Source: Xanthostigma xanthostigma
Taxonomy: Eukaryota > Arthropoda > Insecta > Raphidioptera > Raphidiidae
Direction of reading: 5' to 3'
Length of the DNA stretch: 64,000 bases
NCBI GenBank assembly: GCA_963575645.1
Contig: OY754466.1
Coordinates: 35,806,001-35,870,000, forward strand
Each line of letters starts with the position of its first letter. The stretch's first letter is position 1. This document shows, one piece after another, positions 15,447-54,608 of the stretch. The translations under genes were made by a program, and so were the position numbers. Below the pieces are notes generated by a model. It did no database searches and was not told the origin of the DNA. It worked only from the letters and a program-made list of their open reading frames with translations.

Positions 15447-15503
15447 GGTAAGCCGGATTTAATTTATGTCGTGGTTGGGGAGCTTTTTAAAATCAGGTTA
15501 GTA
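15422..15503 (+). promoter_or_regulatory. Candidate recursive splice site with following micro-exon
   Basis: A pyrimidine-rich tract (gtgtttctcttttgtttcag) ends at 15447 and is followed at once by gtaagcc, so a strong 3' splice site abuts a near-consensus 5' splice site. Another donor-like sequence, aatcag|gttagta, follows at 15496/15497, bounding a 49-nt potential exon (15448-15496). One frame through it is open (reading KPDLIYVVVGELFKI), and another contains an ATG at 15466 (reading MSWLGSFLKS). The layout matches ratchet points of long introns, where the zero-length exon regenerates a donor. RNA data would be needed; a chance match cannot be excluded. Confidence 0.45.
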
Positions 15504-15584
15504 GAGAAGGAACACTCAATTTTTCTACAGCGTGATATTATTTTTGTTTTTAAGGCATTTTTCATCGTGATATATTTTTAAACC

Positions 15585-15640
15585 TTTGATTAACGTTTGA
15601 TTAGAACTCTTCAATAAATAAAATTATCCACCAATTTTTC
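15585..15640 (+). mobile_element. Family E MITE end fragment
   Basis: Contains tttgattaacgtttgattag, aactcttcaataaataaaat and ccaccaatttttca, matching the left end of the element at 10918-11092 nearly base for base. No matching right end lies nearby, so this is a solo end or a truncated copy. Confidence 0.75.
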
Positions 15641-17156
15641 ATTCATCGAAAAACCTATTACAGATATAGAATCGTCATAGTATACAAAGTAAATACAAAA
15701 AATGCCCAACGATATTATAGGTGTACAACATCATCAATTTTTAAAATTTAAATATTCTGATACGTTATAGAATATAGAATAAGTCCAGTGTTTTCTTAGA
15801 TATTCTGTTTTGAAATAGAACCGCCAATTCACACAATACGGCGAGTTGCATATACCTACTCCATAGAAAACTAATTTTTTTTTTTTTTTGAGATACATTT
15901 CTGCTCAAATCTCCAAATTTACATTTTTGTTTTAATTAACTGTTTTCTTTTTCTAGTGGTATATTTTTGTATTGAATTTATAATCATGAATGGAGTCGAC
16001 ACCATTGTTTACATTAAATGAATACACGCGGAATGTCACACATTGGATGCAAAATATAATATATTTTATGTATCTAATATTAGTTACATATTGTCGTCAT
16101 GAGATGTATCAAAGTTGCTGCAATCAAAACCAACAATGTTGATCTAATCAACTTAGTTCATGTGAATGTCACATTATGTTTACAAAAACTATGCATCTAA
16201 TGCATTCACAATTAGCTGCATTTTTCCATCATCAGATGTATCATAAATGCTTCAAATTCAATTATGAATGTTGTCTCAATTAAATGACCCAAAAAATTGT
16301 CACATTGTTGATACACTATTCATTCAATACTTTTCTACATTTTCGGTGCTTACATTACACTTTTCTGATGATGTCAATTTGATCTAAATCTCTCATATAC
16401 TAATTTCGTCAAATAAAATACGTTCAATATTCTGTAAAATTTGGATAATTCATTTTCATCATACCCATGAGTCTCATACTTGTCTATCTGGGATATGTTT
16501 AGAATATTCTCTTAAAGTTTTAAAACGATCTGAGTAATATTCTAAGAGATATAGCCTTCGGATGTTCTACCCTTCAGGCTATGCTATTTGAATGTAAATC
16601 TTTAATCACGTTTTTCTCGAAACTACGTCTTTGAAATCGGTGGTCACGATTTCTCGAAAAATTATGAACCAATCTCTTTGAAATTTTGCACACTTCTTCA
16701 AAATAACATTATCTCGTGCTTGAACGAAGGATTTTTTTTTCCCTATTTTAAGTGATTTTTCAAGGCCATGAAGGGTGCAAATTTTACTCAAAAAAAAGGG
16801 TTTTTTTTGTTCTCAACGCCGCCAAAAATGCAATTTTATTTATTTCTTTTTTTCCTTCGTCCAAGCACAAGCTTTAAGCATCTACTAACAGAAAATTTTT
16901 GGTTTTTGCATTTCCGATGAATTTGTCATGAGTTATCCTGACCACGCCGATAGAACTTTTTTTTGAGGGGTAGCAGGAAACGACGTGTCCACGCCTTAAT
17001 TTTCAATATTTTTTAATGAAAATTTCACAAACTACTTATGAAATATATACCTTTAATATGGTAAATTGATGGAATGAAATATTTTGTTGGTTAAATAAAA
17101 AAAAATTCGTAAAAATGTACCTGTTTTGAGCCTTTGAAACCCACCTAACCCCTTAA
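15641..17156. other. AT-rich stretch, no supported gene
   Basis: Between 16010 and 16340 short words such as atgtatc, catctaat and gtcacatt recur in both orientations, suggesting a degraded repeat that I could not delimit. Between 16500 and 17150 the text is AT-rich with long T runs. No ORF of interest. Confidence 0.4.
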
Positions 17157-17295
17157 GGCATCATGACAATAAAACTACGCAGGTCTTTTACACCGCAATG
17201 GCAAAAAATATGAGATTGTCACACGGCGCGTCATGATGCCTGAGAATCTCCTATTTTCTGCCCTTGCGGTGTAAAAGACCTGCGTAGTTTTATTG
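17157..17295. repeat. Foldback element, ~55-bp arms
   Basis: The left arm caataaaactacgcaggtct and tttacaccgcaatggc is mirrored on the right by gcccttgcggtgtaaaagac and ctgcgtagttttattg, ending at 17295. A second inverted pair, aggcatcatgac at 17157 and gtcatgatgcct near 17229, is nested within it. The nesting suggests two rounds of inverted duplication. Non-coding. Confidence 0.8.
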
Positions 17296-18170
17296 TTTAA
17301 TGATTTACACAACAATATTCATTTAATTAACGTAGGGTACTAAAAACGTTATCATGTTTGTGGTCTCGCATTTGGGATGCGACTGTACCTTAGAGACACT
17401 GCCGTGGTTCTGCAATGCAGGGCAAGGTTTGTTTACGAATATCGTTTTCTACGCCGCATTTCCATAGGTAGAGAGAATCTGCCACTACGATAAGGGATGC
17501 AAAAACCCCCTAGGCACACTAAAGTATTAATACGTATATATAGTAAATTTTTATGCACGAAACACATAGCAGTAAACTGGAGAATTTCCAACGTATTTGA
17601 GGTAGGTCAATGGTGAGTTACCTCGTTACATTAGCCATTAAATAAATAAAAGAAAATTTAACTTTTTTTCGTAATTGCACATATCGCTAAACTAGCGGTA
17701 TGTGTTCTATTATCGCTTTGCGCGTCAGAACTGACTTTCGTCCATACAAAAAGTTATATCTAAGTTAATTTCACACGAAATCCATTCAAATTGTAGGTTT
17801 TTAAGAGAGGAGATTCTGTTCTATAAGAACCATTTTTAGATCGATTCGAGTTCAAATTACTACTAAAATTGTAATTGAAAATCACGAACAGCAGTTGTCG
17901 GTTCGTCTGTACGTACGTATGTACGTCCGAGCTCTACAGATCGCAATTTTGGTCGGATTGCCTTGATTTATATATTATTCACTTTGTGTACTATCAGACC
18001 AAATTACCAGAACTCTGTTTAAATTCACTGAAATGTGATCAGTAATTATATTTTTATAAACAGTTTTATTTTTTATTGTTATTGACAACTAATAGTTAAA
18101 AAACAATATAAAATGTATTAAAATACTGTTAATAAGTTCTATATCACGATAACAGCAGCATTAGTGTAAG
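17296..18170. other. No recognisable gene or repeat
   Basis: AT-rich sequence including a short gtacgtacgtatgtacgt simple repeat near 17910. No supportable ORF. Confidence 0.4.
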
Positions 18171-18171
18171 T

Positions 18172-18240
18172 GTGCCATTGCGCAGTGGATAAGACCTTAG
18201 TTTAGTAGTTGCAAGGTCCCGGGTTCGATTCCTACTGACA
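18172..18240 (+). repeat. tRNA-like relic (SINE head or tRNA pseudogene)
   Basis: Contains an A-box-like tgcgcagtggataaga and a B-box ggttcgattcc at normal tRNA spacing. The box words resemble those of arginine-type tRNAs. The 5' and 3' ends do not pair into an acceptor stem, so this is not an intact tRNA. It is followed by a T-rich region but not by a recognisable SINE body. Confidence 0.6.
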
Positions 18241-18610
18241 TAATTGAATTTTTATTTATTTTTTCTGTTTCATTTTATTCCACTGGATATTTTTTATATG
18301 TTTCTCACATGTTTTTTTCAATTTCTTTTTTATTTTTTCAATTGTTTTTTTAATGTTTTGCAATTTTCATTATACAGGGGAAAACTTGCGGGATGTGCAC
18401 TTTTGATTTTGCCAACTATATTTCTTATTTAATTGAAAATTAGTAAACGTTACTGGGTCAGCCGTTGCGTCAAAAAGTGCCCGAACCTGTTGAATAACCA
18501 TGGCGACTGCGAGTGCGCTTGCCGGTGAAAAATGACAAAACGCCTTAAATCGTCGTGATCACAGTTAAAGGCGAGTTTATAATCGTCTGTATATGTGTTG
18601 AGTCGTGGTA

Positions 18611-20570
18611 TAGTCCGGTGCATTTAGGAATTGACCCAAAAATTTCAGATACATTTTTTCTTTTGTTGCTTATTCGAAAGGGTCTTCGATGGAGACCTTA
18701 ACCCTGAATTTGCGCATTCCCCAAATTGCCCCGTCCGCCGCCATCTTGGATTCTGTTTTTTATTTTCAATTGCTCATATCTCGCGTTCTAATTATCCCAC
18801 AGCAATCGTTCTAGGGTCGTTGGACTCGTCAGGATTTACTCTTTAATTGAATGTCTATCGAGTAAAACTCTCCAATGTACTGGAAAAAAGTTATTAGCGT
18901 CCAAAGTTCAAGTTTTTTGTTAAAAGTTCTTGCGCCCGGTTTTTCCGCGCGCAGCTCTTTCCAGTGCATCTGAGACCCTCACCGACAGTTTACTATTTAA
19001 ACTAGACTCAATTTCCAGTATTTCAAAAAAAAATCATCCCGATCGGTTGATTCCTCGCCCGCCAATCCACGCTCGAAGTAGCGCTGTTCATTATCGTGCT
19101 ATTTTGAAGTCTCTAATACTCGCGTTTCGCGCTGCATTTCTCACTTTTGTAACTAATATAACTCAAATTAATTAAGATCAACGACATATTCGTTAAATTT
19201 ATGCTAAGAATACGCGTTTTACATTAATTTTTTATTTAAATTTATAACTCAGATCAATAGTGACGTGTAGGAGTCGGACGAACATGTAAATATTTTGAGC
19301 CGGAACGAAATTACCTACCCCACCCCCATTTTCGGGGATGCGGTATACGGTGGAAATATTAAAATTTCGTTTTGGGGTTACGCAACCCCCCAAAACGGCC
19401 AAAAACCACACCCCCAAACGGGGTTAAACGCGCATTACTTATTCCCTTTCAGAAAAAAAAAAATTTTTCCCTGAGTTTGAGGATGCTGAGCACGATGGTG
19501 GTGTTGAAAATTGCCACCGACTCTCACCAATCCCTCCACCGACCAAATCTCGGAATCCTGAAACGGAGAGATAACCCAATTTTGCTGGTGATATGAAAAA
19601 AATTCACCCTTTTCGGGGTTGAGATTTGGCCGGTGGAGGGGTTGGTGAGAGTCGACGGCAATTTAATACCATCAACGTGCTCAGCATCCTCAAAAACAGG
19701 GAAAAAACATTTTTTCGGAAAAGGAATAACGTAATGTGCGTTTAACCCCGTTTGGGGGTGGTTTTTGGCCGTTTTGGGGGGTTTCGTAACCCCAAAACGA
19801 AATTTTAATATTTCCACCGTATGCCGCATCCTCGAAAATGGGGGGGGTGTAGGTAATTTCGTTCCGGCTCAAAATATTTACATGTTCGTCCGACTCCTAC
19901 ACGTCACTATTGATCTGAGTTATAAATTTAAATAAAAAATTAGTGTAAAACGCGTATTCTTAGCACAGATTTAACGAATATGTCGTTGGTCTTATAATTA
20001 ATTTGCATTATATTAGTTACAAAAGTGAGAAATGCAGCGCGAAGCGCGAGTATTAGAGACTTCAAAATAGCACGATAATGAACAGCGCTACTTCGAGCGT
20101 GGATTGGCGGGCGAGGAATCAACCGATAGGGATAATTTTTTTTTGAAATACTGGAAATTGAGTCTAGTTTAAATAGTAAACTGTCGGTGGGGGTCTCAGA
20201 TGCACTGGAAAGAGCTGCGCGCGAAAAAACCGGGCGCAAGAACTTTTAACAAAAAACTTGAACTTTGGACGCTAATAACTTTTTTCCAGTACATTGGAGA
20301 GTTTTACTTGATAGACATTCAATTAAAGAGTAAATCTTGACGAGTCCAACGACCCTAGAATGATTGCTGTGGGATAATTAGAACGCGAGATATGAGCAAT
20401 TAAAAATAAAAAACAGAATCCAAGATAGCGGCGGACGGGACAATTTGGGGAATGCGCAAATTCAGGGTTAAGGTCTCCATCGTAGACCCTTTCGAATAAG
20501 CAACAAAAGAAAAAATGTATCTGAAATTTTTGGGTCACACCTATAAAATATTTCTAAGTGCACTGGACTA
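18611..20570. mobile_element. Giant foldback element, ~2 kb with ~0.97-kb arms
   Basis: The left arm starts tagtccggtgcatttagg and the right arm ends cctaaatgc-like, as ctaagtgcactggacta. The arms mirror each other through tgacccaaaaatttcagata, ccatcttggattctg, gctctttccagtgcatctga and ccccaaaacg blocks to a centre near 19590. Four pairs of mirrored ORFs (for example 18631-18846 with 20323-20538) are by-products of the symmetry. The left arm is preceded by gta and the right arm followed by gta, a possible 3-bp target duplication. There is no transposase. The arms have diverged by scattered substitutions and a small indel. Confidence 0.9.
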
Positions 20571-20772
20571 GTATGGGTGCAGTCGTGAACTGATGTACCT
20601 CCTCCGCTTCGCTCTTCACTCCGTACTCAATACCGTGACGGGTTATTAATGTCAACACATTAACATTTAGAGGGAGGCGGGGCTTAGTGAACATTTCACG
20701 CAGGGTTGCTATTTAATTTGAAATGTTTATTGAGTTTCCCTCTGACTCACCTGCAGACTTATCATATAGCTA

Positions 20773-21185
20773 AAGACCGCTGCACACGAGGCTGATTTTG
20801 CCGCTGGAATCGTCGTTGGTACTTGCGCTGGCTGCGAGGACGTAAATTACGTCACTGCGGACTCGCGTGCGTGGTCACAAGCTGGATTACAAAATTAGAA
20901 CCGGGTCTGTTTTCCATGCTTGTTTTTCTGCTTGTTTTGAGCAGGAGCCAATCAGAAACAGCATCTTATTACACGACGTTATAGTGTGTGTTCTGTTCTG
21001 AGACAATAAACGTTCACTTTTGTTAACATTCGAATTGTCACTGCAAGCGCACCAAACCCAGCTTCAAAACACGCATCGTGTGAAGCGATCAAGAAACCCA
21101 GCGCCACTCAGCACGCTTGAAACCTATAGCAGTCAAATTTGGCAAGGAATCGATCGGCAAAACCAGCCTCGTGTGCAGCGACCTT
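20773..21185 (+). mobile_element. TA-target MITE, family B copy 2
   Basis: Preceded by TA (20771-20772), it begins aagaccgctgcacacgaggc and ends gcctcgtgtgcagcgacctt, followed by A-rich flank that can be read as TA. It is about 413 bp, in the same orientation as the copy at 5595. Internal words cgcgtgcgtggtcacaag, gtgtgtgttctgttc and acttttgttaacattcg are shared. Non-coding. Confidence 0.9.
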
Positions 21186-21479
21186 AACTTTACCCTACCT
21201 GCAATCGTGTAAGCACTTCAAATCTCATCGCTCATCACTGATTATAGATTTCGCAATATTACCATTTTAATTATAATATATATACTGAGACATTTATTAA
21301 TTACCCGCCATTTTGAATACGCTAGAAAATTGAAACGTTTTGTTGAATTTTCAATTGTTGCATTGACATGATTTGTTTGTCGAAATAGCAACCGAACTAG
21401 CGATTTTGAAATAATTCGCGATAAATATAGTTACTGAAATGAATTTTTTTCGATATTTAAAAGAGCATTTTACTATTCC

Positions 21480-22300
21480 AACCCACAAGTGGGGAATTCA
21501 AAATTTTACATTATTTTTTCGTTTTGAGGTCCCCCGAATCCAACAACATATTTTTTGGAAAAACTCTGCGTCTGTTAGTCTATGAGCACGGTACAGATCA
21601 AACGGATGAACGGATTGGAAGCAAATTTTGGCAGCATGTTTGGTATGCAATTGTGAAGAGCCCGATTGTTTTTGGGGAAAATCGGCGCACGCGCAGAAGA
21701 AATATATGCTATAACGGTGTTTTTTGTTTAATAATGGTATACTACCATAACAGCTTATAATTCTATTTATTTTTTTAAGAAAGTTTTGTTAAAAATTTAT
21801 TTTTCTAAACTATAGTTTCGGAAATATTTTGAAAATATAAGAAATCAGCTGCTCTTTTGTTTTGTAGATCTATCAGAAATAAACTAGTTTAGCATGCTTT
21901 GATTAATTTTTATGACGTGGAACATAATATTATGTAGGTAACCATGGCAACGAATAGCAAATATCATATTGAATATTAGCCACTACCCGCGTCACTTCAC
22001 GCGATTTCAGAAATTTTATTTTCTTTATTATACTATAGGTATAAAATGTCAACATTTTGTAGTTGAAATGGTCCCGTCGCCCAATTTGATAGAATTTTTT
22101 ATGTTATGGTGGTATTTTTTTCACAGCCTGTATTGTGTTCTCAGACGAAAAGATTTTTTCAGACATTTGTGTTTTGGATTCAGGGGTCATCAAAACAAAA
22201 AAATACTGTATCAAATGTCAATATTTTTGAAGTTGGAATGGTCCCGCCTCCCAATTGACTGGAATTTTTTTCTCTATAAAACCGATAAAGAACGTAATAA
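21480..22300 (+). repeat. Family G interspersed repeat
   Basis: Landmarks are cccacaagtgggg, ttttttcgttttgaggtccc, aaaaactctgcgtctgttag, ggatgaacggattgga, taaccatggcaacgaatagc and tgtcaacattttgtagttga-atggtcccg. The same landmarks occur in reverse order and strand at 30630-31020. The motif tgaagttggaatggtcccg recurs within this stretch near 22230. ORFs at 21524-21760 and 21969-22328 lie inside the repeat and have no recognisable domain. A decayed, non-coding repeat of unknown class. Confidence 0.75.
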
Positions 22301-22854
22301 ATGCAGCGCTATAATGACTCAGTTTTAAAATTGATAACACCCATTTTCGCTCCTAATTCTTCTGTTTTTGAGTTATTACTGCAGGTTTGGAACCGGCATT
22401 TTCCACTATTATCTTATTTCTAACAACAGTTAATCGCCTGTTTAATTTTTTGACAGTTTGTATAATTGATTTTTTCAGTCATTATAGTTTAATTGACTTG
22501 TGCCAGTGATCTACATGTTAGAGATGCATCTGTCTGTTTTTACAAATATTAACAATGCGCAAACATGAAAATATACCGGAAAATTGAAACATTAGAGTAT
22601 AAATGTACCATAACCAAATGATTCCTTAATATTAATAGAGCACTTTCATTTGAGTTCAGAAAATTCCATGTTCATTCGATATTCTCTACGTTCACAGTTG
22701 AGCAGTTTACACGCGTAATTACGACAAAACACGCGAGTACCTTCCTTTATTATAAGTCTCCAATTCCGCATTAAAAGGACGTGCCGAGTTTACTTGTTGC
22801 CGTTGAACTTCGCTCGCCATCGTCGTCTCGAAATTTTTAGCGTTGTTCAGCCAA

Positions 22855-23030
22855 TTGAGCGACAGGACCATTCAAACTACAAAAATATTGAAATTTTGAC
22901 ATAATAAATAAAATAAAATTTCTGTTAACACGTGCGGTGAGGCGGGAACGATATTTGCGATTCGTTTGTATGGTTACATAATATGATTTCAAGTGTAAAA
23001 ATTTACCAAAGCTTACTATCTTTTTGACAG
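22855..23030 (-). repeat. Family G fragment
   Basis: Contains gcgacaggaccattcaaact, attttgacataataaat and cgtttgtatggttacataat, matching the end of family G at 30635-30740. Related fragments are at 29925-29975 and 41775-41900. Confidence 0.6.
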
Positions 23031-24047
23031 ATCCTCAGAACAAAAGAACGGCTGATTTTTTTTTAATTTTTAAAATATTCCCGACACTAAATACCGATAT
23101 GAAATATATACCATTCTAACAGAAAAAAAACAACAACGTTGTAGCGCCGATCTTCCCCCAAAACAATAGAATTCCTTCATATTTACTTACATGATAGACA
23201 TCTTATCGGTTATATGATTTTGTAGATCATCGATTAAGGATGATGACAATCACGTGGCTGTCATTACTTTGTGTGCGGTAATCCGACGGTGTCCCGAATT
23301 AATGAGATTCTACGGTAGATAAATAATTAACCGGAATAATAAGCGAAAATCGTCAATGTGAAAGAAGCAAATAACTCACTGTTGATTTGATAAATGGCTT
23401 CGATTTATTACATAATTTGACTTAATATAATGTTGAAAACATCCTACGTTATGAAAATAGAACTGCTTTTCTGGCATGCGAATAATGCAAATGACTTGGC
23501 CATTTCATTTACGCTGTGGATTTCCTCCTGTCACGAAATATGTTTACATGTGCATTTATGTACAAGCTGGCTAAATAAAAGCGTTAACGTTTCGAAACAG
23601 AAAACGTCACTTTAATAGTTCAAGACACTTCCTTCACACATAAATCATAAACGTTCATGGTACGATTCACATACAAAACAACTGAATTCGATCCTCTTTT
23701 GTTTTTATTTGGCACGGGGTAGTGTGCTTATTTCAAAATCAAGAAAAAGCCAAAGTCTTCTCATGATATTCAGACCTTTTCTACAAACGATAACTGTGGT
23801 GATTACGAACTGCTTAGCAAAATAAATACTCTGTGTAATTATTTTGTTTGTTTTATTCTGCTGCACAAAGTGACTACCTAAATAGTATGTTAAATATTAA
23901 TGATCACAAATAGTGCTTATAAATTTTGTAATCACTGTGGCTACGTTATAACCGATCAGAAAATAAATAGTAGATTATGGTAGTTATTTTAAATTTTGCA
24001 AAAGTAAACTCTTTATTCTTCAGTAATAAAAAGTAAAAAAAAAGAAC
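23031..24047. other. No recognisable gene or repeat
   Basis: AT-rich intervening sequence. The ORF at 23430-23615 is short and unrecognised. Confidence 0.4.
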
Positions 24048-24218
24048 AACTTTTAAAGGCTGGAATTTATGGTACCTATATTTATTTGCTAAATCTCCTG
24101 TAATGTACATTTCGACACCACCATTTCCAACTTTTGAATCTTGAGGCAAAATAATGATGTCGAAACGTTGACTACTTAACAAATAAATATATTATATTCA
24201 ATCCAGCCTTTAAAACGT
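24048..24218. repeat. Small inverted-repeat element
   Basis: The arms cttttaaaggctggaatt (near 24049) and aatccagcctttaaaacg (near 24200) face each other across about 150 bp. A line of aatgatgtcgaaacgttgac sits between them. Probably a short MITE; ends not confirmed by a target duplication. Confidence 0.55.
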
Positions 24219-24399
24219 GTTATTACTAACTACTTAGTTTTTAATTAAAGAAATGTCACCATTGCACTGACGTCGAGTGGGTTGAACTGGAAAAATATTT
24301 GATTAAAAAGTTCGTGGAGATGATAAATGTGAAACAAATCTACTTTGTTATGAAAAATGTGTTAAAACCAATTTATAAACTTTTCTTGTCTTTAATAAC

Positions 24400-24570
24400 T
24401 CTCCAAGTGTGTAGGCTTTCACGGCCGGTGTTGATCCAAATCTCGTGTGTGAGCAGCTCAGAAGGACACTTCGCCCGCTACCACATCGCCTTTGATAATG
24501 TCTACCGCAGTTGTAGACGAAACGCCAGCTAGTAATACCAATGGACCTCGGCATACAAGCCCGGAAACCA
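24400..24570 (+). mobile_element. Probable Penelope-like element relic with hammerhead-like motif
   Basis: The stretch gtgtgtaggctttcacggcc through gacctcggcatacaagcccg is GC-rich compared with its surroundings and resembles terminal sequences of Penelope-like retroelements that I recall from arthropods. At 24492-24523 ttgataat is followed by a perfect 6-bp stem (gtctac/gtagac, loop cgcagtt) and then gaaac. This is the order CUGAUGA-stem II-GAAA of a hammerhead ribozyme, with the first core block degenerate. No reverse transcriptase ORF is present, so it is a terminal fragment. The family assignment is an inference. Confidence 0.5.
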
Positions 24571-25224
24571 AGAAGATTTGGATTTTAATAACTCTATTGA
24601 CAATTGCCTCATATTGATTTAATACCTAATACTAGAGTAGACTGGTGCATGTAATCTATTACCTCTTGACGTGTTAAAAACCTGGAACATTTATGTCGTA
24701 TAGAATAGTATGATGATGTCTACACTACTGTATACATCATATCTTCACGTCCGTTGTGTCGGCGTTCTTTTTATTTTTGACGCCGACTTTTTTTATTACA
24801 GTTAAATCACCCACTCGGAAAGTACACGTGACGTTTTCTTTTGTTTTCGTGTATTTTCACCTGACGCTCGAATGTGTCGTGTGAAATGGTATCTAAAACA
24901 CATTTGCATTTTGTTATAAAGAAATTTGCACGATAAAGTGATATGTCGTGTCGGAGATTACATTGTGTCCATCCGGAAATGCTACATAGCTCATTGTGTA
25001 AGTTCTTAGACTGTGACTCAGACAATTGTAAATTAAATTAAATGAGTGCGATGAATATTAAGTTACTGAAAATTCCATATTCTAATATTTCTGTGGTGGC
25101 AAATAATTGAATGATTGCTGCGTGTCTATTGTTTGGCGGTTTTTTCTTTTTTGAATCAGTGGTTTTCGTTGTTATTATTTATTCCGTGGTTAAATTCTTC
25201 GCGCTTTGTGTTCCTGTTTGCGTA
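24571..25224. other. No recognisable gene or repeat
   Basis: AT-rich intervening sequence with one 72-codon minus-strand ORF (24807-25025) that resembles nothing I know. Confidence 0.4.
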
Positions 25225-25490
25225 TAATAATAATGCGTATAACGTCTGTTTCTCGACTTTATGTCATAACAGACGCCATTCGTACCATTACTATTTTTCA
25301 TCTATCACTGTTCCCATTATTTTCTACATTCTTTCAACTTCAACTAATCAATAGCAATGGGCGAATGAAGGAATTTTAGGACATTGGAATAAGGTAGGAA
25401 AATTTTGAGCATAGAAGTTCGACAGGTAATCGGCCATGGCGAACCATCTCGATATTTATCATGGAAGTGCTCTCACCACTACGCTACAGC
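25225..25490 (-). mobile_element. tRNA-derived SINE, copy 2, internally deleted
   Basis: Shares cgtctgtttctcgactttat, gtcataacagacgccatt, aagg-aattttaggacatt and ttgagcatagaagttcgaca with the copy at 40591. The segment carrying the B box and most of the tRNA-like head is missing: the body jumps from tatttatcatgga to gtgctctcaccactacgct. It can therefore no longer be transcribed from its own promoter. Confidence 0.8.
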
Positions 25491-43110: not shown

Positions 43111-43119
43111 GTTTTTCAT

Positions 43120-43637: not shown

Positions 43638-43920
43638 CATTGTAAACTCTATAAAGCGAAATTCTATTTAACGAAACATTTTTTAAACGTAGAAATTGCT
43701 AAGGTTTGTTTGGTTTGCATTGTTATCCAAATTATATAGCGTAGCAACCACTCCCAATAGCGAAACAATATGCACATTTTTTTCACTTAATTCAGTCAAA
43801 ATTAAAACCACTTATTCGTAAAATTATATTGTTTTTTTTTTACTCTCCGTTTAACGAAAACTCTTTATAACGGAATAAACTACCCGGTCCCTTCAAATTC
43901 GCTATATAGAGTTTACATTG
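43638..43920. mobile_element. pogo/Tigger-type MITE with TA target duplication
   Basis: Starts cattgtaaactctataaagc after TA (43636-43637) and ends gctatatagagtttacattg before TA (43921-43922). The ends match as inverted repeats with about two differences in 20 bases. Ends of the type taaactctatatagcgaa are characteristic of pogo-like elements. The 283-bp interior is AT-rich and lacks any transposase ORF. Confidence 0.85.
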
Positions 43921-43922
43921 TA

Positions 43923-44395
43923 TTGTGTAATGTGTATGCCATTTGTTCTGTATTTCAATAGATTTAAATTGACATGTCTATGATGGTCATATCTACAACT
44001 GCCAGTCGTTATGAAATTTTTACGATATAATGAATACCAATAAAGCGGCTTGCAAAGTTCAGCCAGCAATATACCGTAATTAGCTACAGAGTAAGTGTCG
44101 AGATCCAAGCCTGGGTGCTTCAACTGATTTATTTACGATCGAACATAATTTTTTTACGTTCCCGATGTTGATCCGTATTTATTTGTGTTAGAATTCATTT
44201 TCAATTATAGACTAAGAGGTCGTGGCAATTTTTTTTGCGAATTCGTCAGATTGGAAAAAGTAAAATATACATATAATAAAGTATACAACACGGTACGACA
44301 ACTAAGCTATCAGATATAGCCACGAGGTACAATACAGTTCAGTAGTCCATCTGAATTCATTGCAATTGCACGCTTAGTTGGAAACTGACCGCGGC
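43923..44395. other. No recognisable gene or repeat
   Basis: AT-rich, with one 73-codon minus-strand ORF (43902-44123) overlapping the MITE end. Confidence 0.4.
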
Positions 44396-44500
44396 TAAGC
44401 GTGAAAAATCTTCGAGACTCGAACTATTTGCATACCTATAAGCGTGTACGGAACCCTCGGTGCGCGAGTTCGACTCGTACTAGGCCGTTTTTTTTTAAAT
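44396..44500 (+). mobile_element. Retroelement 3' end fragment
   Basis: Contains cgtgtacggaaccctcggtg, cgcgagttcgactcgtacta and ggccgttttttttaaa. This ending, with a gagttcgactcg core followed by a T run, is one I recall from 3' tails of retroelements in Lepidoptera. No 5' part or reverse transcriptase is present. The assignment is from memory and unverified. Confidence 0.5.
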
Positions 44501-45262
44501 AGTTCATTATTTTAAAACGATTTTGTCGTACAAAAGTTTCTTCCTAAATTATGAGTTTTGAGTAGACGTATAAGTAAACAGCTTACAAATAATTGATTTA
44601 TTTATATTGTTTAAGCCACAAATCAGTCTTCAGTTCAGTGACAAATTAAATGCACGCGACACTGCCCACCTGTTTACTGGAACATAGCGTTAACATACAC
44701 AAATACATGAATAGACAATATCACAATAGGTATATGCACACTAAACAACGAACGATGTTATTATGTATAGACGTGTTAAGCACATCATTCTGTTGTTTCG
44801 TTTGTTTATCCGCGGTGACGTGCGATTGTTTAAAAGCTTAGCTGTTCTCAACGATTTTTATCGAACAATCACGAAAATTAATTGCTCGACCTCAAAGCGA
44901 CACGGCGCTAGGAATTGGAATTTTGACAAATTCAAACCGGAATTTTTGGTTACGGGCAGGATACTGGTATTTCTGGCAGTGTAGGTCGCAGGAATATATT
45001 TATTTACTGGCCTTCCTTTTTGATATTTTTTTTTTCGACCAGATTCACGAATAATGGTTGTCTTAACAGCTTCGCACGAGGAGAAAAAATGTTTTACACA
45101 ACAGTACTGGAGCCTACGACTCCACGGCATTACAGTAATTTATGTATCATTGTTTCTGCATGCCTGCCTTTGTATGACTGTCTCTGTACGACTTTCCCTG
45201 TGTGACTGTCCGTGGAACTCTCCACTAAGCTATCTCGTGGTTTATGTAGGCGCTAGATAGTT
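44501..45262. other. No supported gene
   Basis: Five overlapping short ORFs on both strands (44650-45260) occur here because the sequence is a little less AT-rich. None resembles a known protein, and they contradict one another in frame. Confidence 0.4.
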
Positions 45263-45264
45263 CT

Positions 45265-45440
45265 TTCCTTTGTTGCTTTTATTGTTGTCTGGAATTTGAC
45301 AACAAAGCTCTTTTTACGTACGCATATTGTTGGAACAACAAGCCGTTTGTTGTCTCCCACAACAATCGGTGTGTCTTTGTTATAATGACAAGTCGATTAT
45401 TGTTTCACGAACTTCTTTGTCGTCTCAACGGGGAGTTTGT
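45265..45440. repeat. Run of small ttgttg/caacaa hairpins
   Basis: Successive mini-palindromes: attgttgtc-tggaattt-gacaacaaa near 45280, attgttggaacaacaag near 45328 and gtttgttgtctcccacaacaat near 45347. A looser ttgttataatgacaag follows near 45378. Three good hairpins in about 100 bp share the same stem word. Origin unknown. Confidence 0.55.
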
Positions 45441-47164
45441 AGCAATAGATTAAATATTTATAATTTAACTTCTTAAAGGGATGAATTTTCAAAAATCTTT
45501 TCTTAGCGCTCTTCTACGTTATACACGGTGTCCCAACTAAAACTTGTACCCCCATAAAACTCGGCAAAATAGACGTTTTGACAAAAATCCAAAAACACGT
45601 CGAATTTTTATATCAAAGGGGACCAGTTTTTATGCAAAAATCATTCCTGCAACTCTAGCCCTGTGTCCCCTCAATTTTTTAATCGGACGGGGGGGGGGGT
45701 CGAATGATCCCTAATTTAGAAGGGTTTTTCATTACTTACACAATCGAATTTGTTTTTTTTTTCCAATTCTATCGATTTATTACCGAGAAATTGCAGCACG
45801 ATTCAAATTCACGTTTCTTCTTACCTTGAAAACGGTTTACATTAGATTATTAAAAATCACGGAATTCGTACAATGACCTCTAGTTTTTCGTTTTGAACCT
45901 TTTAGCGGAAGAGCAAATTGTGGTTTTATTGAAGCAACGCACATTACAAGATTATTAATTGTTTATTACAACTTAACGAAAGTATTCATTTGTTAAGCAA
46001 TGCAAACATAATACACTATAATATAATAGTAAAACATTTTCACTTTTTTTAGCTAAACAGCAAACAACGGATAAATGAAATTATTATTAATATTTTGCAT
46101 ACATGTATATGTGCATTAACACCTTAATAAACTAATAAAATTTATTTAAATTGCACACAAGTGAAATTATAAACAATTTCATCATGTTTTGTTTCATTAA
46201 AATAATAAACAGTGAAAATTTATAATATTTATTTCATAACTGTTGCGGTTAGATATACACGCGTTCAATTGCTAATTTATGGCAGAAATTCTTATCGTGT
46301 TTGATAAAACTGTATATTCTGTTTTCTATACGCTTTTTATATTGTTTAGAATGAGAAATTAATTTTAATACCTGCTTTAAATAATTATTATTTACCGTTA
46401 CGAAAGTTGCGTTGTCAGAAGTGCAGAGGCTAGCGGTGCGTTTATTTTGTGCCTGTAATTATTACAGTTTAATTTTTTTGTTCTACTTGTGTGGTTCATT
46501 TTAGTTTATCGTATTGAAATTGAAAAACTACTGTCCGTCTGTCGCAAAGAGCAAACGGTACAAGCTAGTGACTTGACATTCGGCATAGTTAAGGTTTGCT
46601 GACCCAATGATGTGGTTTAGAATAAGATATGATAAATTTGGACAATTATGTTTAATTAATGGGAGGGAGGGTCAAATAGGTAATGAAAAATTAAAAAAAA
46701 AAAGTTAACTCCATCTAGTGGATTGTCTAATGAAAATCAAATAACTAATTAGAATACCATTAGTAAGTGTATCATATAACGATGATAAAAGTATTGACAA
46801 CATTGTATTTTAGTATTTCGGAGAAATTACAGATTCACTGTTGCTAAATTGCTTACAAATCCCAACATTTCAACATACATGAACTCAAGTCAATCTCGAA
46901 AAATATAACTAATAAAAATCTGAAAAATACGAAACATTTCACATATAAGCTCGGCTTGCACTTGGCAGCTCTTTTTGGCATTTTTAGGCCTCTGATCTTA
47001 ATATATATTTAAATCACGGAATAGATTCAATAATTGCAGCCTATATTTTTGACGAGTTAATTTCTAACATTTTTTTTTCGCAACGCACGTGATACCGCAT
47101 ACCTGTTGTACAAAATGACTTAATAATTGGTCTCATTGTGTACCCTTGTTTCTGTCAGGACTTA
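45441..47164. other. AT-rich, no supported gene
   Basis: Starts with acggtgtcccaactaaaact near 45529, which resembles an inverted-repeat element end, but no partner was found. A run of ten G lies near 45690. The rest is AT-rich without ORFs of note. Confidence 0.4.
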
Positions 47165-47172
47165 ATTATTTC

Positions 47173-47670
47173 TAGAGATGAGTGATATTTCACTACCTGT
47201 TACTTAGTCGCTAATATTTGGATTTCACGGTTCACTGCAGTGACTTCAGAGTAGCTACCTGTTACCAACCAGCGGCTAAGCAAAAAAATAATAGTCACAT
47301 GCGCTATTTCACTACCGGTTTTTTTAACTAAATGTATTACCCATTTTAATAAAGAAATGTGATCACTAATGTAAAATATGTACTTTATATACTTAAATAA
47401 ATACATAAAAATATTGTGCATGGGCTGTTTTAGCACCGAACGATATTTTACCTGTGATCACTGTTCGCTGAAATCAATATATTAACATCTCTGCTCTGCA
47501 CGTGCACAGTCATTCATGTGATCGGCGAACGCTGGTCGCTTATATATTATCTGCACTGCATGCGCATAAGTTACCAGCGATCACGGGTCGCAGTTAAAAA
47601 TCACAGGTATTTGGAAGTCGCAGTCGCCAAAGTACCTGTTACTTGAAAGTAGCTAATAATCTCATCCCTA
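47173..47670. mobile_element. hAT-type MITE with perfect 8-bp target duplication
   Basis: Opens tagagatgagtgatattt and closes aataatctcatcccta. It is flanked by identical attatttc at 47165-47172 and 47671-47678. The interior has many inverted words: tcactacctgttacttag near the left end versus agtacctgttacttgaaa near the right, and cagcgatcacgggtcgcagt. The 8-bp duplication and the TAGRGATG ends are hAT hallmarks. Length 498 bp, non-coding; the 78-codon ORF at 47200-47436 is incidental. Confidence 0.9.
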
Positions 47671-47678
47671 ATTATTTC

Positions 47679-48532
47679 TCCGCAGATAGTATGAATGATA
47701 ATACGTCTGCAAAGTTTAACTGCATTTGTGTAGTCAGCATGAGAAGTAAATTTCAGACGTAAAGATAAGACATGCAACTCTGCACGTTTCGGAAGATAAC
47801 CCCTATATTTGAATAGTACTATTACTTACCTACCATTTCTAGTGATTCTTGAATATAATAGGTACCTACTAGTGTACCAGTGCAAAACTTTTTGCATGTA
47901 TCATATTGTTTTAAAAAATATTTATTTTGACACAGATCTGCGACAATAATTTTATTCCTCTTGCATTAGTTTCCATTTACAATTATTAAAAAATCTAACA
48001 TCATTCGATACATTTACGATTTTCACTAGTTTTTTCTGATCTGAGACCAAATTTTAGACTTGGTACAGTCTATGTAATATTTAATAAAAAAATTATTTTG
48101 GCATAAAATTAGGATAAGCTTACACTTGCTTAAATTATGTATCTTTCTGTATCTGACGCTATAATATTCCGATGGAATTTTAAATAAAGAAATTATTATT
48201 ATTATTATTTGGACATTGTTTAATTAGGTAACTAGATTTTAAATGCCGACTTTTAAAATTAAGTTTGTTATTCTGACATGTTAATTTAATAATTTCAAAC
48301 GAATATTACTTAACAGGGGTGGCAGTAACAAAAAAAAAATGTTCTACAAAACTTGCTTATTTTTTAAAGATCTTTTAAATAATACAACTTTCGACCTATC
48401 GTTCTATTTAACATTCCGGAGTTCGATTCTTCATTAGAGCTTTTATAATACAGATTTTTGACAGAACTCTTTACGACTAACCGTTTTCGAAAAAAACGAC
48501 TGATACGGGTGGTCTGACTCACCCTGTATAGG
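47679..48532. other. AT-rich, with one element end at its right side
   Basis: The right edge (gggtggtctgactcaccctg, ending tata near 48530) looks like the end of an acagggtg-type inverted-repeat element. I could not find its other end. A short (att)n repeat lies at about 48196-48210. Confidence 0.4.
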
Positions 48533-48564
48533 TGTTCCAGGCAGCCAGCAAACGGTAACGAAAC
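48533..48564 (+). mobile_element. Family D MITE, one-ended fragment
   Basis: Reads tgttccaggcagccagcaaa and cggtaacgaaac, matching the first 32 bases of the copy at 55334-55488. The rest of the element is absent. It directly abuts another element end, so one insertion may have truncated the other. Confidence 0.75.
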
Positions 48565-49392
48565 TAAAAATAATTTTAGAATTTAAGCTTCAAGCCATCT
48601 CATTTTCAATAATATTTTTCTTTATTGTTCCATAGGTAGAAATATATATACATTAAAAAAATCAAATTTGTCGCTTCATCTGTTTGTTCACTTAAACAAG
48701 GTAGATTTCTAGGGGGCGTCAAATAATTTTCTGTACCAAAAGGGGTCGGTAGGCCAAATAAGTTTGGGAATCTCTGGTGTGTATACTAAAACACATATAA
48801 TTTTGATTAGTCATCAAGTTGGTATTTTGGCAGAAAAGAATTTCACGTGGCCATCTTGAATTACAAAGCTTCTATTTTAGTGATGGCATAGCAACACTGA
48901 GTAGATCTCTAACTCAACGACCGCTTAACGCACAACGCACAGCCATTGTGGGTTGTTTAGGATAAGCTGCACTTGAGTTGTTTGTGGAATGTTTCTGCGA
49001 TAATATTTGGGCGAGAGGAAGTAAACATTGATATGTTTATGTGCGTAGATAGGAAGCGAACGCTTACATTTATGCACCTTCTAATTCAGAGCCTGCTTAT
49101 CTAAAAAGGAAATATTGTGTATTGTGTGCGTGTTGTTCGAGATTGTGTGGTTTGTTTAATTTCTGCGGTTTGATATTATTGCGACCGTGTCGACATTTTT
49201 AACACTCTTAACATTGAAGTTACTCTAGAGTCTAGATGTTGTTTTATTTTGCCTTGTTTAAGTGCCTGGACCTCACGATTTATTTTTCATTTAATAAAAT
49301 TAATAGTCGAAGCGACGGACGCAAAAAATGGTTTCGATTAACAAGAAAAAATAACGTGAATTGCCATTATTTAAAACGGCAACAATATTATA
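48565..49392. other. No recognisable gene or repeat
   Basis: AT-rich intervening sequence without ORFs of note. Confidence 0.4.
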
Positions 49393-50095
49393 ATATGTCG
49401 TAGTCACATAGTGGAATTAGTCATATTGTGAAAAAACTGGGTGTAATGCGTTATTCTTTTGCTACTGAACATAATAACAACCTATTGACCATTTAACATT
49501 TTTTTTATCACAGATTTGCTATTATTATTATATCATAAGTTTTTAGTAATACTATATTGTGCGACTAGTGAGAGAAGGAGAAGATTCCATGAGCGTGAAA
49601 TTTGCCGCACGAGCGTAGCGAGTGCGGTAAAACGCACGCGAGTGGAATATTCTCCTTCGATCAATGGTCGCACATAATATTTTATTCAACTAGCACGAGT
49701 AATATGCAATCGGGGCCCTGATAAAAGAGGGAAAAATAATAAATCACTTCATGGATTGACGTACCCAGCGCCCTCAATGAACGCAGTTTTTTTTCATTAT
49801 TGCACGCTTGGGCTTGCTACTGCGTTTCTATTGGTCCAGAAAATTCATTATCACACTGTACGGCTCATTATTAGCACTACGCGTCAACATGAAGTAATTT
49901 ATTATTTCTCCCGAATTTAGCAGGGCCCCGAAATTACATATTACTCACGCGTGTTGAATAAATAATATTCTCGACGAGTTTTAGTTTTATTCTGTTTGCT
50001 TAACGCAACGTAATATATTTCATTATAGCAATTATTATAAAATATCTCGAAGTTTTTCACAATCGGACGGATTCCACTATGTGACTACGACATAT
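49393..50095. mobile_element. Nested foldback element, ~700 bp
   Basis: The outer arms are atatgtcgtagtcacatagt with ggaatt, and attccactatgtgactacga with catat. Inside are two further inverted pairs. One is gaaggagaagattcca against tggaatattctccttc, around 49575-49660. The other is ttcaactagcacgagtaata and cggggccctgat against cagggccccgaaattacata and cacgcgtgttgaa, around 49685-49970. The first inner pair encloses gcacgagcgtagcgagtgcg, itself a palindrome. No coding capacity. Confidence 0.85.
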
Positions 50096-50399
50096 ATTCC
50101 TAAAAAGCTTTAACTCTATATGGAACCTACATCAAAATGATTGACGGAATTGGTGTTGCCTAGGCAAGTCACTATATTTTCCTTAAGATTGTCATCTTCT
50201 ATAAATTCTTAACCATTTTTTTACATTCAATAAGGAAAATATGAACTTTAATTTAAACTATGTAGTGAGAAGAATAAGACAACATATTTCATTTATAATA
50301 AAGGTAATTTCATTAATAGCTTTGGTGAACCGTAGAATGCTAAATCTTGAGAGTGTCGTTTTTGTTGCTTCTTATATTTCCATTCCGGGCGATTTGATG

Positions 50400-51314
50400 T
50401 AGTGATGGGAATAATCGAATGATTTTAATAATCGAAAGGTTGCTACTCGAATGATTTTGATAATCGAATGATTCATTCGAAATGTTACCTTCGAGATGTT
50501 TCATTATAATGAGTATAACAAATATTCTCGTAGTATTTAGTTTACTATAGGTAGTTACTACTTACCCACCTTAATACTAATATATTACAGCACACATTAA
50601 AACACAAAACTTTTATTTCATTAGCAAAAATAATTAACTGGAAGAAATACATAATAATATATATTATATAAAACAAATTATTCCATTTCAATAGCAATCT
50701 TTCAATTTATAGGTACTATATTTTTATTTTTACTAAATAATTAATAAACTATAAAAGTATAAACTATAAAATGTAGTGTGGTACTGTGTAGTGTGTACAT
50801 CTATTTCTGGTAGTCGTAAACGCATTACGCAAAACACTGCAATAAAACCAATTGAGAGATTGGACAAAATTCTCTCGCGGACAGAATTCACTCATTGTAT
50901 ATCTCGAAAGGTATATTTCGAGTGGTTTAGGACGTTCTCGAACGATGTTACTGGTTACCGCAAGCTAGCCGTGAGCAGTGAAGACAAAATATACAAAATG
51001 AAACTTCATTCGACCTAAAATATTAGTTCGAGGCATCGAGGTTCGATTGAATTCATTCGCAGTATAAACACATTCTGAATGAAGTTTGCATTCATCTCGA
51101 CTTAGAGGTTTCGATTCTTTAGACTTTAATAGCTAATACAATAGAGTAGCCTGGATGCAGTGCTTCATAGAACAGAGGCAGATAAAAGATGTTACTACTT
51201 AGTATATACTTACTAAAAATCATTCGAGTGATTTTTAATAACCTCTCGAGATATCTCGAGATATTTTAATAATCGAATGATTCTGTATTTTATTTCGAGA
51301 TATTCCCATCACTA
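50400..51314. mobile_element. hAT-type non-autonomous element, 915 bp, perfect 8-bp target duplication
   Basis: Begins tagtgatgggaataatcgaa and ends tcgagatattcccatcacta. Identical atttgatg flanks it at 50392-50399 and 51315-51322. Near both ends the words taataatcgaatgatt recur in direct and inverted form, giving repetitive subterminal regions as in many hAT elements. The 80-codon ORF at 50776-51018 is the only interior ORF and shows no transposase feature I recognise, so the element is non-autonomous or a decayed deletion product. Confidence 0.92.
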
Positions 51315-51322
51315 ATTTGATG

Positions 51323-51680
51323 TAGTTTTTTGAACAACGTAATTTAGTGTACCGTCTCCGGCATGTGTGCCACTAACACTATATTTGTGTAGATGATACT
51401 TATAGGTTGTAGGTAGCGTGTCCTGTATTCTGCCACTGCACTGGGTCGACCAGTGGCGGCTGGAATTGGCTTACCGAGCTCTGTGGAGGGTGGCGGATTG
51501 AATTGCAAAGCCTTCGTTACGACACCCGCCTTCCAGCAGCGCCTAGCTTCAGTCAGGTCATCCGGAAAGCATTGGCTCTCGAACCTTAATCCACTTTGCT
51601 GACCCTTGTAAATAAACTGGACTAGGTGCCGGTGCTCGAATCTTGGACGCTCTCTTTGTCATAATAAAACGACTAAACAT
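51323..51680. other. Unexplained GC-richer island
   Basis: Between about 51420 and 51660 the base composition rises (ctgggtcgaccagtggcggc, cgacacccgccttccagcag, ggtcatccggaaagcattgg). No ORF of useful length crosses it on either strand and no repeat structure is visible. It could be an untranslated exon, a conserved regulatory element or the remnant of a retroelement. Confidence 0.3.
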
Positions 51681-53005
51681 ATTATTAGCCGTTATCTATT
51701 CAGTGCTTTTCAACACCGCATTGTTTTTGCTCGTTTGAGAGACGAGTGTTGCCAACTTATTTTCAGCTAAAATATGCATTTGTAATTTGACTTCGATTTT
51801 TTTGAGGTGCAAACATCTCTTCTGCCTCCTCCAATTTCTACTATAATGAAATGTCACTTGAGCGTCTAAATATTTTTTTGACATTTTATTTAACGATCAC
51901 TTAAACAGTTATTTTCATTAATGCCCATATGCACCGAACACTATGAAAGATAGAAGTTACTAATCTTGGAACAAATTTATTTGTTAGAATAAAATTTACT
52001 TTCAATTCACCAAGCAAATTATCAGGGAGAAATGTTAGTTAAAGAATAAATATACACTGCACTATACTCCATGCTCTTTTTGTTGAATATTTTGACGTTC
52101 ACCCAAAAAACGGCCGAGAGCGTTAGTGTAATCGTCAAAAAAAAGGTTCACAAATTAATAATGTTTTATCCTAACCCAATTGCACAGAAAACGTCCACTA
52201 ACTTTAATGATTTACAAAACTATACATTTCACAAAATGTTAATAAACAATACATAAATAAATTCACAAGAGCAACTGTAGATATAATACTCCACATTTAT
52301 AGGTTAGGTATTATGATATGTGGCGGCCATAATTATTTTATCAGGCAAATAAATATTTATACCCTGAAAATAAGACAGAATACATTTACCTATGCTGTAA
52401 ACATAATTATGGTTGGTGAATTGAATTATCGCTATTTATTCGGAAGAATAGTTACCCAAGGAACAAATGAACCGAATAAATAACTAAACTTACGTTCGGT
52501 GAACATGGCTATAAGTTTATCGGATTCAGTTTTATGGCGTCTATATGAGGAGAAAGTTTTAGTCTTGAAATTAACAGCTTTTTACAATCGCTTTGTATCA
52601 GATTTTTTTGTCATTTCAATTAGACGCTGTAATGTTGTTAAAATTTAGTGGGAGCAGACATAAAAGGGTCCGAGAATAAACTGTTTCGAGTCACAGTTGA
52701 AAAACATTGTTTACCGCAGCGTTAACAAAACCATCAATTGTAGGTTAACCTCTCACATCTACTGCATTGTGCCTCCTCCGCCGCCCCCTGCTGCAAATGA
52801 GTTTCACTACAACCTGTTTGTCGTATTACTCCTTTACAAGGCAACCTTTGTGTGTCTTGAGAGAGAGAGCACGCTTTTGTGTCGTCTTCGCGACGGGACT
52901 CTATGTATGTCAACAAACGAACCAGAATCAAGTTCCCTTTTTAAAAGTTTTTATTTAACTTGATTTGTTTGTCTTCACTGCTACAAATCTTCTAAGTCGA
53001 TTTTG
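51681..53005. other. No supported gene
   Basis: AT-rich. Around 52690-52990 three overlapping ORFs on both strands cover a slightly GC-richer piece. None resembles a known protein. Confidence 0.4.
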
Positions 53006-53009
53006 ACGC

Positions 53010-53175
53010 ACTTCCGGTTATCCGATTGAGTTGAAATTTTGCATACACGTGTAAATAGTTTCGATGACAATGCACTTAAGCGATTTATGTACTAAAAATT
53101 CAAGATGGCTCCTCCAATATGGCGGGCGAATTCAAGCTTCTATCTTGAAATTTGGCATAAATGAAGATCACGTAG
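53010..53175 (+). repeat. Diverged relative of the family A unit
   Basis: Contains gagttgaaattttgcatac followed by cgatgacaatgca, aligning with ttgaaactttgcatacgtat and cgatgacaatgcaa of family A at 425-1503. It is preceded by cgcacttccggttatccg and followed by aagatggctcctccaatatg. A second diverged relative (cccacttccagacgttttga, cattttgcatacgtattgac, cgacaatacagtaa) lies at about 53826-53890. Old copies of the same superfamily. Confidence 0.65.
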
Positions 53176-53911
53176 CACAAAAAAAAAAAACAAAAGTCAG
53201 TAATTATCTATGTAAAATTATTACGTAACAAACTTATTTTTTTTAACACGGAACTTCAAGGTAGACAATTTTTTTATCGTGTTAACAACATTGTACTCTT
53301 TAGGATTTTTTATGCGTCTGCGTTGGTTTTTAGGCAATTTTAACGTGGAAAAGAGAAGTACTCAAAAATTTGCATATAAATATGTACATAAATTTAATAA
53401 AATTACTGTTAATTATCACTCAGATTATGTGTAACATGTATGTAAATATTTATGTAAAATTAAACATCCTGCCGTTTTCGATGGAGTTAAGTATTAGCTT
53501 ATAAATAATAAAATTACATTTCATTTACATGGAGTCTAATAGCATGTGCCGTTATGTTATGTGACCGTATGACTAAATACTGAAGAGACGACATAGGTAT
53601 TAGAAAAAAACGATTAGAATGATGATCTGTAAAAATTGGAAATTAGTATAGCAATGTTTGTAAAATTCGACATACTATGGTGGAATTTTTCGACGTAGAC
53701 TTTTATTATAGTTTAAACAAAATACCTATGTATTTTGTTTGATATGTTCTCTAACCTTTTTTTTAACTTTATTAACTTCATCTGCATGTATGTTTCTATC
53801 TAATGGGGTCTTTAATTTAATTTTCACCCACTTCCAGACGTTTTGACATTTTGCATACGTATTGACAACCCACGACAATACAGTAATTTATATAAATATT
53901 TATAAATAATA

Positions 53912-54256
53912 CTAGCGGCCCTGTACGTGCTTCGCTACGTATAAAGTGAAATAATAAAACAATTTAATTGGAACATCTATCTATCTATTTTATTTATTTT
54001 AAAATATACATGGACGTATATGTGTGTATGTCGAGCACTCCGGCTGCGCCGTCGTGCCCGGTGCAAAAGAACGAATGGGGAAGGAAGAAAAAAAATTTAG
54101 GGGTGGAGTACCCCTAACATTTAGGGGGATGAAAAATAGATGTTGGCCGATTCTCATAGATACCGGATAAGCACAAAAAATTTCATCAAAATCGGTCAAG
54201 CCGTTTCGGAGGAGTATGGCAACGAAAACTGTGACACGAGAATTTTATATATAAGA
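53912..54256 (-). mobile_element. Non-autonomous Helitron, 345 bp, reverse orientation
   Basis: On the minus strand it starts tcttatatataaaattctcg after an A and ends with CTAG (plus-strand ctag at 53912-53915) before a T, fitting A|T insertion. A small hairpin (tacgt/acgta around agcgaagc) lies about 10 nt before the 3' end. The body contains cgaaacggcttgaccgattt and gagaatcggccaacatctat on the minus strand, a sequence style I know from insect Helitrons. No ORF for Rep/helicase. The 66-codon minus ORF at 53999-54199 is incidental. Confidence 0.88.
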
Positions 54257-54346
54257 TATAAGTAATGTATAGTCATTTGAGTGTTAGTTTTTAGGATTAT
54301 TATTAAAGTTAGAGTTTAAAAAAACGTCAACAATAAAACAGTCTTT

Positions 54347-54491
54347 TATAGCAATGTGGACTAAAAAATAAAAAATATTTTTTTAAATATAAAGATTTTA
54401 TTCAACAGCCTTAGGAAGTCCCCCAACTCGTTCCTATCGCTGTCGAACAAAATTTTTATATTTAAACATTATTTCTTTCCACATTGCTATA
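54347..54491. mobile_element. Family H palindromic element with conserved hairpin, copy 1
   Basis: The ends tatagcaatgtgga and tccacattgctata are inverted repeats. At 54408-54446 an internal motif, ccttaggaagtcccccaact followed by cgttcctatcgctgt, forms a hairpin that recurs better preserved in copy 2 at 58128-58166 (acagcgatagga / tcctatcgctgt). Non-coding. Confidence 0.7.
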
Positions 54492-54540
54492 CAAGTCTGT
54501 TTTTAAAACACATTTTTTTTAATTATATCTCTGTTGGTAC

Positions 54541-54608
54541 TAATTTTATTTTCTTTGTTTCAGGTAAAAAAACAAACCGTCATTGAACTCCTTTTAGTCG
54601 TAAGTACC
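54541..54608 (+). promoter_or_regulatory. Candidate recursive splice site with 36-nt micro-exon
   Basis: The tract ttttattttctttgtttcag ends at 54563 and is followed directly by gtaaaaa. A near-consensus donor gtc|gtaagta then follows at 54599/54600. The 36 nt between are open in the first frame (VKKQTVIELLLV) and divisible by three, so inclusion would keep a reading frame. The regenerated donor gtaaaa is weaker than that at 15448. Together with the sites at 15447 and 35318 it makes a set spaced 19-20 kb apart. Confidence 0.4.

Follow-up and report, generated by a model that had tools for sequence, protein, structure and literature searches.

Most experimental work on recursive splicing, to our knowledge, concerns Drosophila and vertebrates. 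Fly ratchet points follow the consensus (Y)nNCAG|GTAAGT (PMC5126111; the bar marks the splice junction), and 63% of fly introns longer than 40 kb hold a high-confidence site, with up to seven per intron (PMC6110457). In the fly model, the upstream exon joins the ratchet acceptor, the regenerated donor wins, and the recursive-splicing (RS) exon is removed with the next segment (PMC8605326). Non-fly insects were covered by computation in a survey of ratchet-point (RP) sites, which found sense enrichment in fly, mosquito, bee, beetle and sea urchin, with sense/antisense densities per 100 kb of 2.20/0.10 in fly, 1.03/0 in mosquito, 0.81/0.10 in beetle and 0.48/0.12 in bee (PMC2773006). Here, a 64,000-nt window of the Xanthostigma xanthostigma genome (623 Mb, 28 contigs), comprising positions 35,806,001–35,870,000 of contig 3 (54.7 Mb), was analysed, and three + strand AG|GT sites within it are, with a probability of roughly 0.88, recursive-splicing ratchet points with short RS-exons that would be skipped, in an intron that belongs to a pumilio-like gene and, unless an exon was overlooked, measures at least 234 kb.

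The window was analysed together with 200 kb of upstream and 90 kb of downstream DNA (354 kb in all), and coordinates are given relative to the window, negative values lying upstream of position 1 and values above 64000 downstream. Splice sites and branch points were scored with matrices, and branch points were compared with those of 818 simulated acceptors (17–30 nt before the AG). The three sites are composed as follows:

15425, + strand: putative branch-point A (CTTAT), 22 nt before AG|GT; 12% of simulated acceptors as good
15428..15453, + strand: putative ratchet point 1, polypyrimidine tract, TTTGTTTCAG|GTAAGC; AG ends at 15447 (TTTCAG|GTAAGC)
15448..15496, + strand: putative cryptic RS-exon 1, 49 nt, not a multiple of 3, one open frame
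15497..15502, + strand: RS-exon 1 donor, CAG|GTTAGT; score 8.2 vs 12.3 for the ratchet donor
35294, + strand: putative branch-point A (TTAAC), 24 nt before AG|GT; 10.6% of simulated acceptors as good
35299..35324, + strand: putative ratchet point 2, TTTGTTACAG|GTGAGC; AG ends at 35318 (TTACAG|GTGAGC)
35319..35383, + strand: putative cryptic RS-exon 2, 65 nt, stops in all three frames
35384..35389, + strand: RS-exon 2 donor, AAG|GTAAGC; score 11.2 vs 12.8 for the ratchet donor
54543, + strand: putative branch-point A (CTAAT), 20 nt before AG|GT; 4.8% of simulated acceptors as good
54544..54569, + strand: putative ratchet point 3, with a weaker donor, TTTGTTTCAG|GTAAAA; AG ends at 54563 (TTTCAG|GTAAAA)
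54564..54599, + strand: possible RS-exon 3, 36 nt, a multiple of 3, one open frame
54600..54605, + strand: RS-exon 3 donor, GTC|GTAAGT; score 5.2 vs 7.1 for the ratchet donor

The initial annotation had given the three AG|GT sites at 15447, 35318 and 54563 with exact sequences and coordinates, and the trailing donors that it had placed 49, 65 and 36 nt downstream were found there. It had also described the second and third sites as looser than the first, which is true of 54563 and untrue of 35318, which has the top-scoring donor of the three. On the + strand of the window no other donor equals the ratchet donors at 35319 and 15448, and 54563 has the top acceptor score of the window on either strand. 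An alternative exon ending at the first ratchet donor (15263–15447) has no open frame.

Coding exons of the + strand lie upstream of the window near -142.0 kb, near -97.0 kb, at -81.87 to -81.59 kb and at -80298..-80167. The first three match, in order, a probe of the fly Pumilio N-terminus (tblastn, E = 0.49, 7e-10 and 1.6e-5), and the fourth (132 nt), which has no match to this probe, stays open when read in the phase that the third exon leaves and is followed by the donor GTAAGC. One upstream exon compared with the PDB returned a single row at noise level (E 0.66). The host gene is accordingly described as pumilio-like, its N-terminal region being probably homologous to that of fly Pumilio. 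Because the last upstream coding exon ends at -80167, the window would have this position:

1..64000, + strand: putative interior of one intron of the pumilio-like gene, the intron running from -80166 to past +154000 if no unseen exon intervenes

The proposal of the initial annotation that the window is interior to a very long + strand intron is borne out by this preceding exon, by three further + strand sites outside the window and by the lack of - strand sites scoring at least 16. On the + strand, T is more frequent than A in 45 of the 64 1-kb bins of the window, as would be expected where the sense strand is transcribed. In fly embryos, pumilio is among the nascent transcripts (PMC8906543), and a literature search for recursive splicing together with pumilio found no such link in the excerpts of PMC8906543 and PMC7053140.

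The further sites are:

-52580, + strand: putative ratchet point TTTCAG|GTAAGC, trailing donor at 65 nt
-19650, + strand: putative ratchet point TTACAG|GTAAGC, trailing donor at 40 nt
+114182, + strand: putative ratchet point TTTCAG|GTAAGT, trailing donor at 46 nt

Across 344 kb, a score of at least 16 is reached by 6 of 861 AG|GT sites on the + strand and by 0 of 896 on the - strand. Within the 224-kb intron part, the counts at thresholds of 12, 14, 16, 18 and 20 are 12, 7, 6, 5 and 3 on the + strand and 11, 1, 0, 0 and 0 on the - strand, and over the first 144 kb of the intron an order-5 expectation of 0.43 sites at 16 or above (observed 5) and of 0.07 at 18 or above (observed 4) was obtained. 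No further ratchet site was found in the 10 kb at 144001–154000 (best + score 10.0). From the intron start to +114182 the segments measure 27.6, 32.9, 35.1, 19.9, 19.2 and 59.6 kb, so removal in steps of about 20 kb, as had been proposed, is not general; outside the window the segments span 27.6–59.6 kb, and the ~20-kb spacing merely reflects which stretch the window happens to cover (for three random points, the chance that the gaps differ by no more than 626 nt is 0.029). Four of the six ratchet donors (-52579, -19649, 15448 and 35319), as well as the donor of the preceding exon, have C at +6 (GTRAGC) and not the usual T.

All six sites share TTTGTTWCAG|GT, which occurs 6 times on the + strand, 0 times on the - strand and nowhere else in the 354 kb, where TTTGTTWCAG without GT occurs 8 times on the + strand and once on the - strand. 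Among 141 other acceptor-like sites on both strands (score at least 10), G stands at -7 in 7 and TTTGTTWCAG in none; among 351 (score at least 9), the numbers are 15 and 1. The motif was written after all six sites were known, the window sites alone defining TTTGTTWCAG|GTRA and the final G of GTRAG coming from five of the six; allowing any base N at the -7 G turns it into TTTNTTWCAGGTRAG, with TTTNTTWCAG as the acceptor part alone. Outside the window, in the fetched flanks, TTTGTTWCAGGTRAG is found 3 times on the + strand and 0 times on the - strand (0 in 30 Mb simulated), TTTGTTWCAGGT likewise 3 and 0 times against 0.18 expected per strand, and TTTGTTWCAG alone 5 times and once against 2.8 expected.

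Genome-wide, TTTGTTWCAGGTRAG has 595 matches (339 + 256), against 4 for the reversed pattern. Neighbour statistics were computed for the first 100 of the 595 places listed, with host exons sought in the fetched stretch only. Among these 100, neighbours fall on one strand in 29 of 29 pairs within 100 kb and in 52 of 52 within 300 kb (chance 0.545 each), the smallest gap is 23 kb, the median gap for pairs within 150 kb is 72 kb, and contig 1 has 27 gaps of 100 kb or less, against 10.3 under uniform placing. One-strand trains of this kind match the pattern to be expected of ratchet points in very long introns. On contig C1, 13 consecutive copies lie on the + strand over 0.9 Mb (13,972,078–14,867,163), perhaps marking many ratchet points of a single giant gene or of a few.

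Three other explanations were weighed against ratchet points. The one that survives best, though it is very improbable, holds that the 49-, 65- and 36-nt intervals are ordinary or poison cassette exons that start by chance with GTRAG or GTAAA, so that the first AG|GT would serve only as an acceptor. An acceptor and a downstream donor are indeed present at every site, the 36-nt exon is in frame and open, and some fly RS-exons are expressed, for example m1 and m2 of Ubx (PMC8605326). But five of the six exons begin with a full GTRAG donor, and at all six sites the ratchet donor is stronger than the trailing one. The lengths (65, 40, 49, 65, 36 and 46 nt, 5' to 3') break the frame in five of six cases, 15448–15496 included, the 36-nt exon at 54564 being the exception, and 35319–35383 has no open frame; of the three window intervals, only 54564–54599 would qualify as a frame-preserving open exon. 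The motif that recurs genome-wide, and is strand-coherent in the 100 places listed, moreover includes the GTRAG.

Slightly less probable still is a dispersed repeat family carrying a splice-like core, which would account for the 595 motif copies and for self-similarities of 19–41 nt between several sites (for example 54563 and 114182, 86% over 36 nt). The similarity is, however, limited to the stretch from branch point to donor, the flanks of the first five sites being unlike (ungapped identity 0.19–0.37), and a transposon would hardly keep all 52 close pairs on the same strand or leave no gap below 23 kb among the 100 places listed. The three window cores also fall outside the self-repeats, which cover 21% of the window.

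Strength against chance was assessed within the window. By log-odds composite, 15447, 35318 and 54563 are the top three among 157 AG|GT sites on the + strand and 156 on the - strand; with a normalised score that uses no background, the + strand order becomes 54563, 15447, 30258, 35318, and a cut of 0.8 is passed by 9 + sites and 2 - sites. The expectation per 64-kb strand under an order-4 Markov model is 0 for 15447 (20 Mb simulated), 0.016 for 35318 and 0.144 for 54563, or 0, 0 and 0.029 when an equally good trailing donor is included, and block dinucleotide shuffles (300) gave 0, 0.003 and 0.08. A trailing donor as good within 25–100 nt is found at 3.3%, 0.35% and 18% of random + positions for the three sites, respectively, and the third trailing donor is unremarkable because of that last figure. 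Taken by itself, the window makes a good case for two of the sites and leaves the third, 54563, undecided. Chance splice-like sequence in non-transcribed or irrelevant DNA is the least probable explanation of all. It gains something from 54563, non-significant when taken alone, and from the modest donor-permutation p values, but 15447 and 35318 are almost never expected by chance, all six sites scoring at least 16 lie on a single strand, host exons precede them on that strand, and the motif recurs outside the window and throughout the genome.

A fourth AG|GT site, at 30258 on the + strand (TTTTTTTGTGCAG|GTAAAC), scores 15.3, with an expectation of 0.26 per strand. It was left out of the ratchet points because it has neither the shared motif nor a good trailing donor (3.1), and is possibly a decayed or minor ratchet point.

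Several observations weigh against recursive splicing of one long pumilio-like intron. The splice and branch matrices are generic ones, not trained on this species. Donor halves permuted among + strand AG|GT sites gave p = 0.10, 0.022 and 0.043 for the first, second and third site, this permutation being a weaker test; the normalised score places a - strand site, 12502 (0.854), above 35318 (0.843); the donor at 54563 is poor (score 7.1); and -19650 has no good branch point. The intron part is unbiased by strand at a threshold of 12 (12 and 11 sites), donors taken alone are equally strong on the - strand, and in the 119.8 kb further upstream, where other introns of this gene lie, no + site and four - sites reach 14. 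As for the gene, the exon at -142 kb matches the probe at noise level (E 0.49), on a par with a stray match at -172.6 kb (0.53), and was assigned because of its order and splice sites, not its E value. A search with the probe up to +154000 did not reveal the C-terminal Pumilio domain (PUF repeats), which leaves the downstream intron end unplaced and the intron bounded on one side only, and short exons were sought by splice scores within the window and at 60–104 kb only, so an unseen exon could divide the intron.

If the six sites are ratchet points as proposed, the exon ending at -80167 would be joined to the first ratchet acceptor, AG|GT would regenerate a 5' splice site at the junction, and the regenerated donor would beat the weaker donor 36–65 nt downstream, so that the short RS-exon, needed for exon definition, would leave with the next segment. 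The step would be made at -52580, -19650, 15447, 35318, 54563 (the weakest) and 114182. The order of donor strength, ratchet above RS-exon at every site, fits such skipping.

The remaining content of the window and its surroundings was surveyed for other features. A Pfam scan of all three + frames and most - frames of the window, with stops read as X, found no family above cut-off, the only row, Eryth_link_C, being noise (15.3 bits against a cut-off of 27); one - frame of 4601–19599 and one open reading frame of the - strand in 1–4600 were compared with the PDB only. ARAGORN found no transfer RNA (tRNA) gene in the window. Rfam gave one match at gathering score, tRNA-like (31.7 bits), at 40954–41013 on the - strand, adjoining a two-copy repeat (8007–8231 and 40741–40965, 87% alike) and suggesting a tRNA-derived short interspersed element. 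Exact-pattern scans of viral and prokaryote contigs with two site cores and two repeats had 0 matches in all six, and are uninformative because those collections are not meant for insects.

An inverted repeat at 18632–20537, with arms 96–97% complementary over most of their length, is a candidate foldback element, element resembling a miniature inverted-repeat transposable element, or strong hairpin inside the intron. Arrays of 164–174-nt direct and inverted repeats occupy 436–1507 and 2660–3405, with three 248-nt tandem copies at 99% matches (Tandem Repeats Finder). Copies of one repeat at 12519–13580 and 62345–63037 are probably recent because they are mostly 94–100% alike (one ungapped stretch 69%). 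Inside the host gene and antisense to it lie open frames of 915 aa (L014:4751–7495, - strand) and 1059 aa (L027:5143–8319, - strand), which by eye resemble retroelement proteins. A tandem array at L020:8535–10000 and L021:1–1502 (+ strand) has a unit of about 40 codons and is open over several hundred codons.

The mechanism is known, and the example is new and unusually clear, with a possible extended recognition motif. One intron appears to hold six ratchet points, and sequence alone, in the form of a 15-base motif, seems enough to locate such points across the genome. More speculatively, and with considerable doubt, an extended ratchet code is proposed, in which a branch A about 20–25 nt upstream is followed by TTTGTTWCAG|GTRAG, the invariant -7 G would separate ratchet acceptors from ordinary ones, about 600 perfect copies would run in strand-coherent trains through the longest genes, and a U-rich-binding protein reading UUUGUU could serve as a factor devoted to recursive splicing. 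RNA from the species could show whether giant introns outside flies are generally handled by recursive splicing, and whether the acceptors of ratchet points have a signal that ordinary ones do not.

Compared with known systems, the evidence is of the same computational kind as that for the RP-sites of PMC2773006, with its sense enrichment in introns longer than 50 kb; here one intron is mapped with candidate RS-exons and an extended motif, and the scoring differs, so that densities are not strictly comparable. Vertebrate recursive-splicing sites with RS-exons likewise combine AG|GT with competition from a downstream donor (as described in PMC8605326 and PMC5126111), although vertebrate RP-sites show little sense enrichment (ratio 0.9–1.5, PMC2773006), unlike this locus. 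From the intronic ratchet points of Drosophila (Ubx, kuz, Bx and Ten-m; PMC8605326, PMC6110457), the present sites differ in their segments, typically 9–15 kb in flies (PMC6110457) and 19–60 kb here, in being predicted from sequence, and perhaps in the fixed TTTGTTWCAG core with G at -7 at all six sites. They resemble them in the AG|GT with a strong acceptor and donor, in the presence of several sites per very long intron on the sense strand (PMC8605326, PMC6110457), and in RS-exons of about 50 nt that have a weaker donor and mostly break the frame (PMC8605326).

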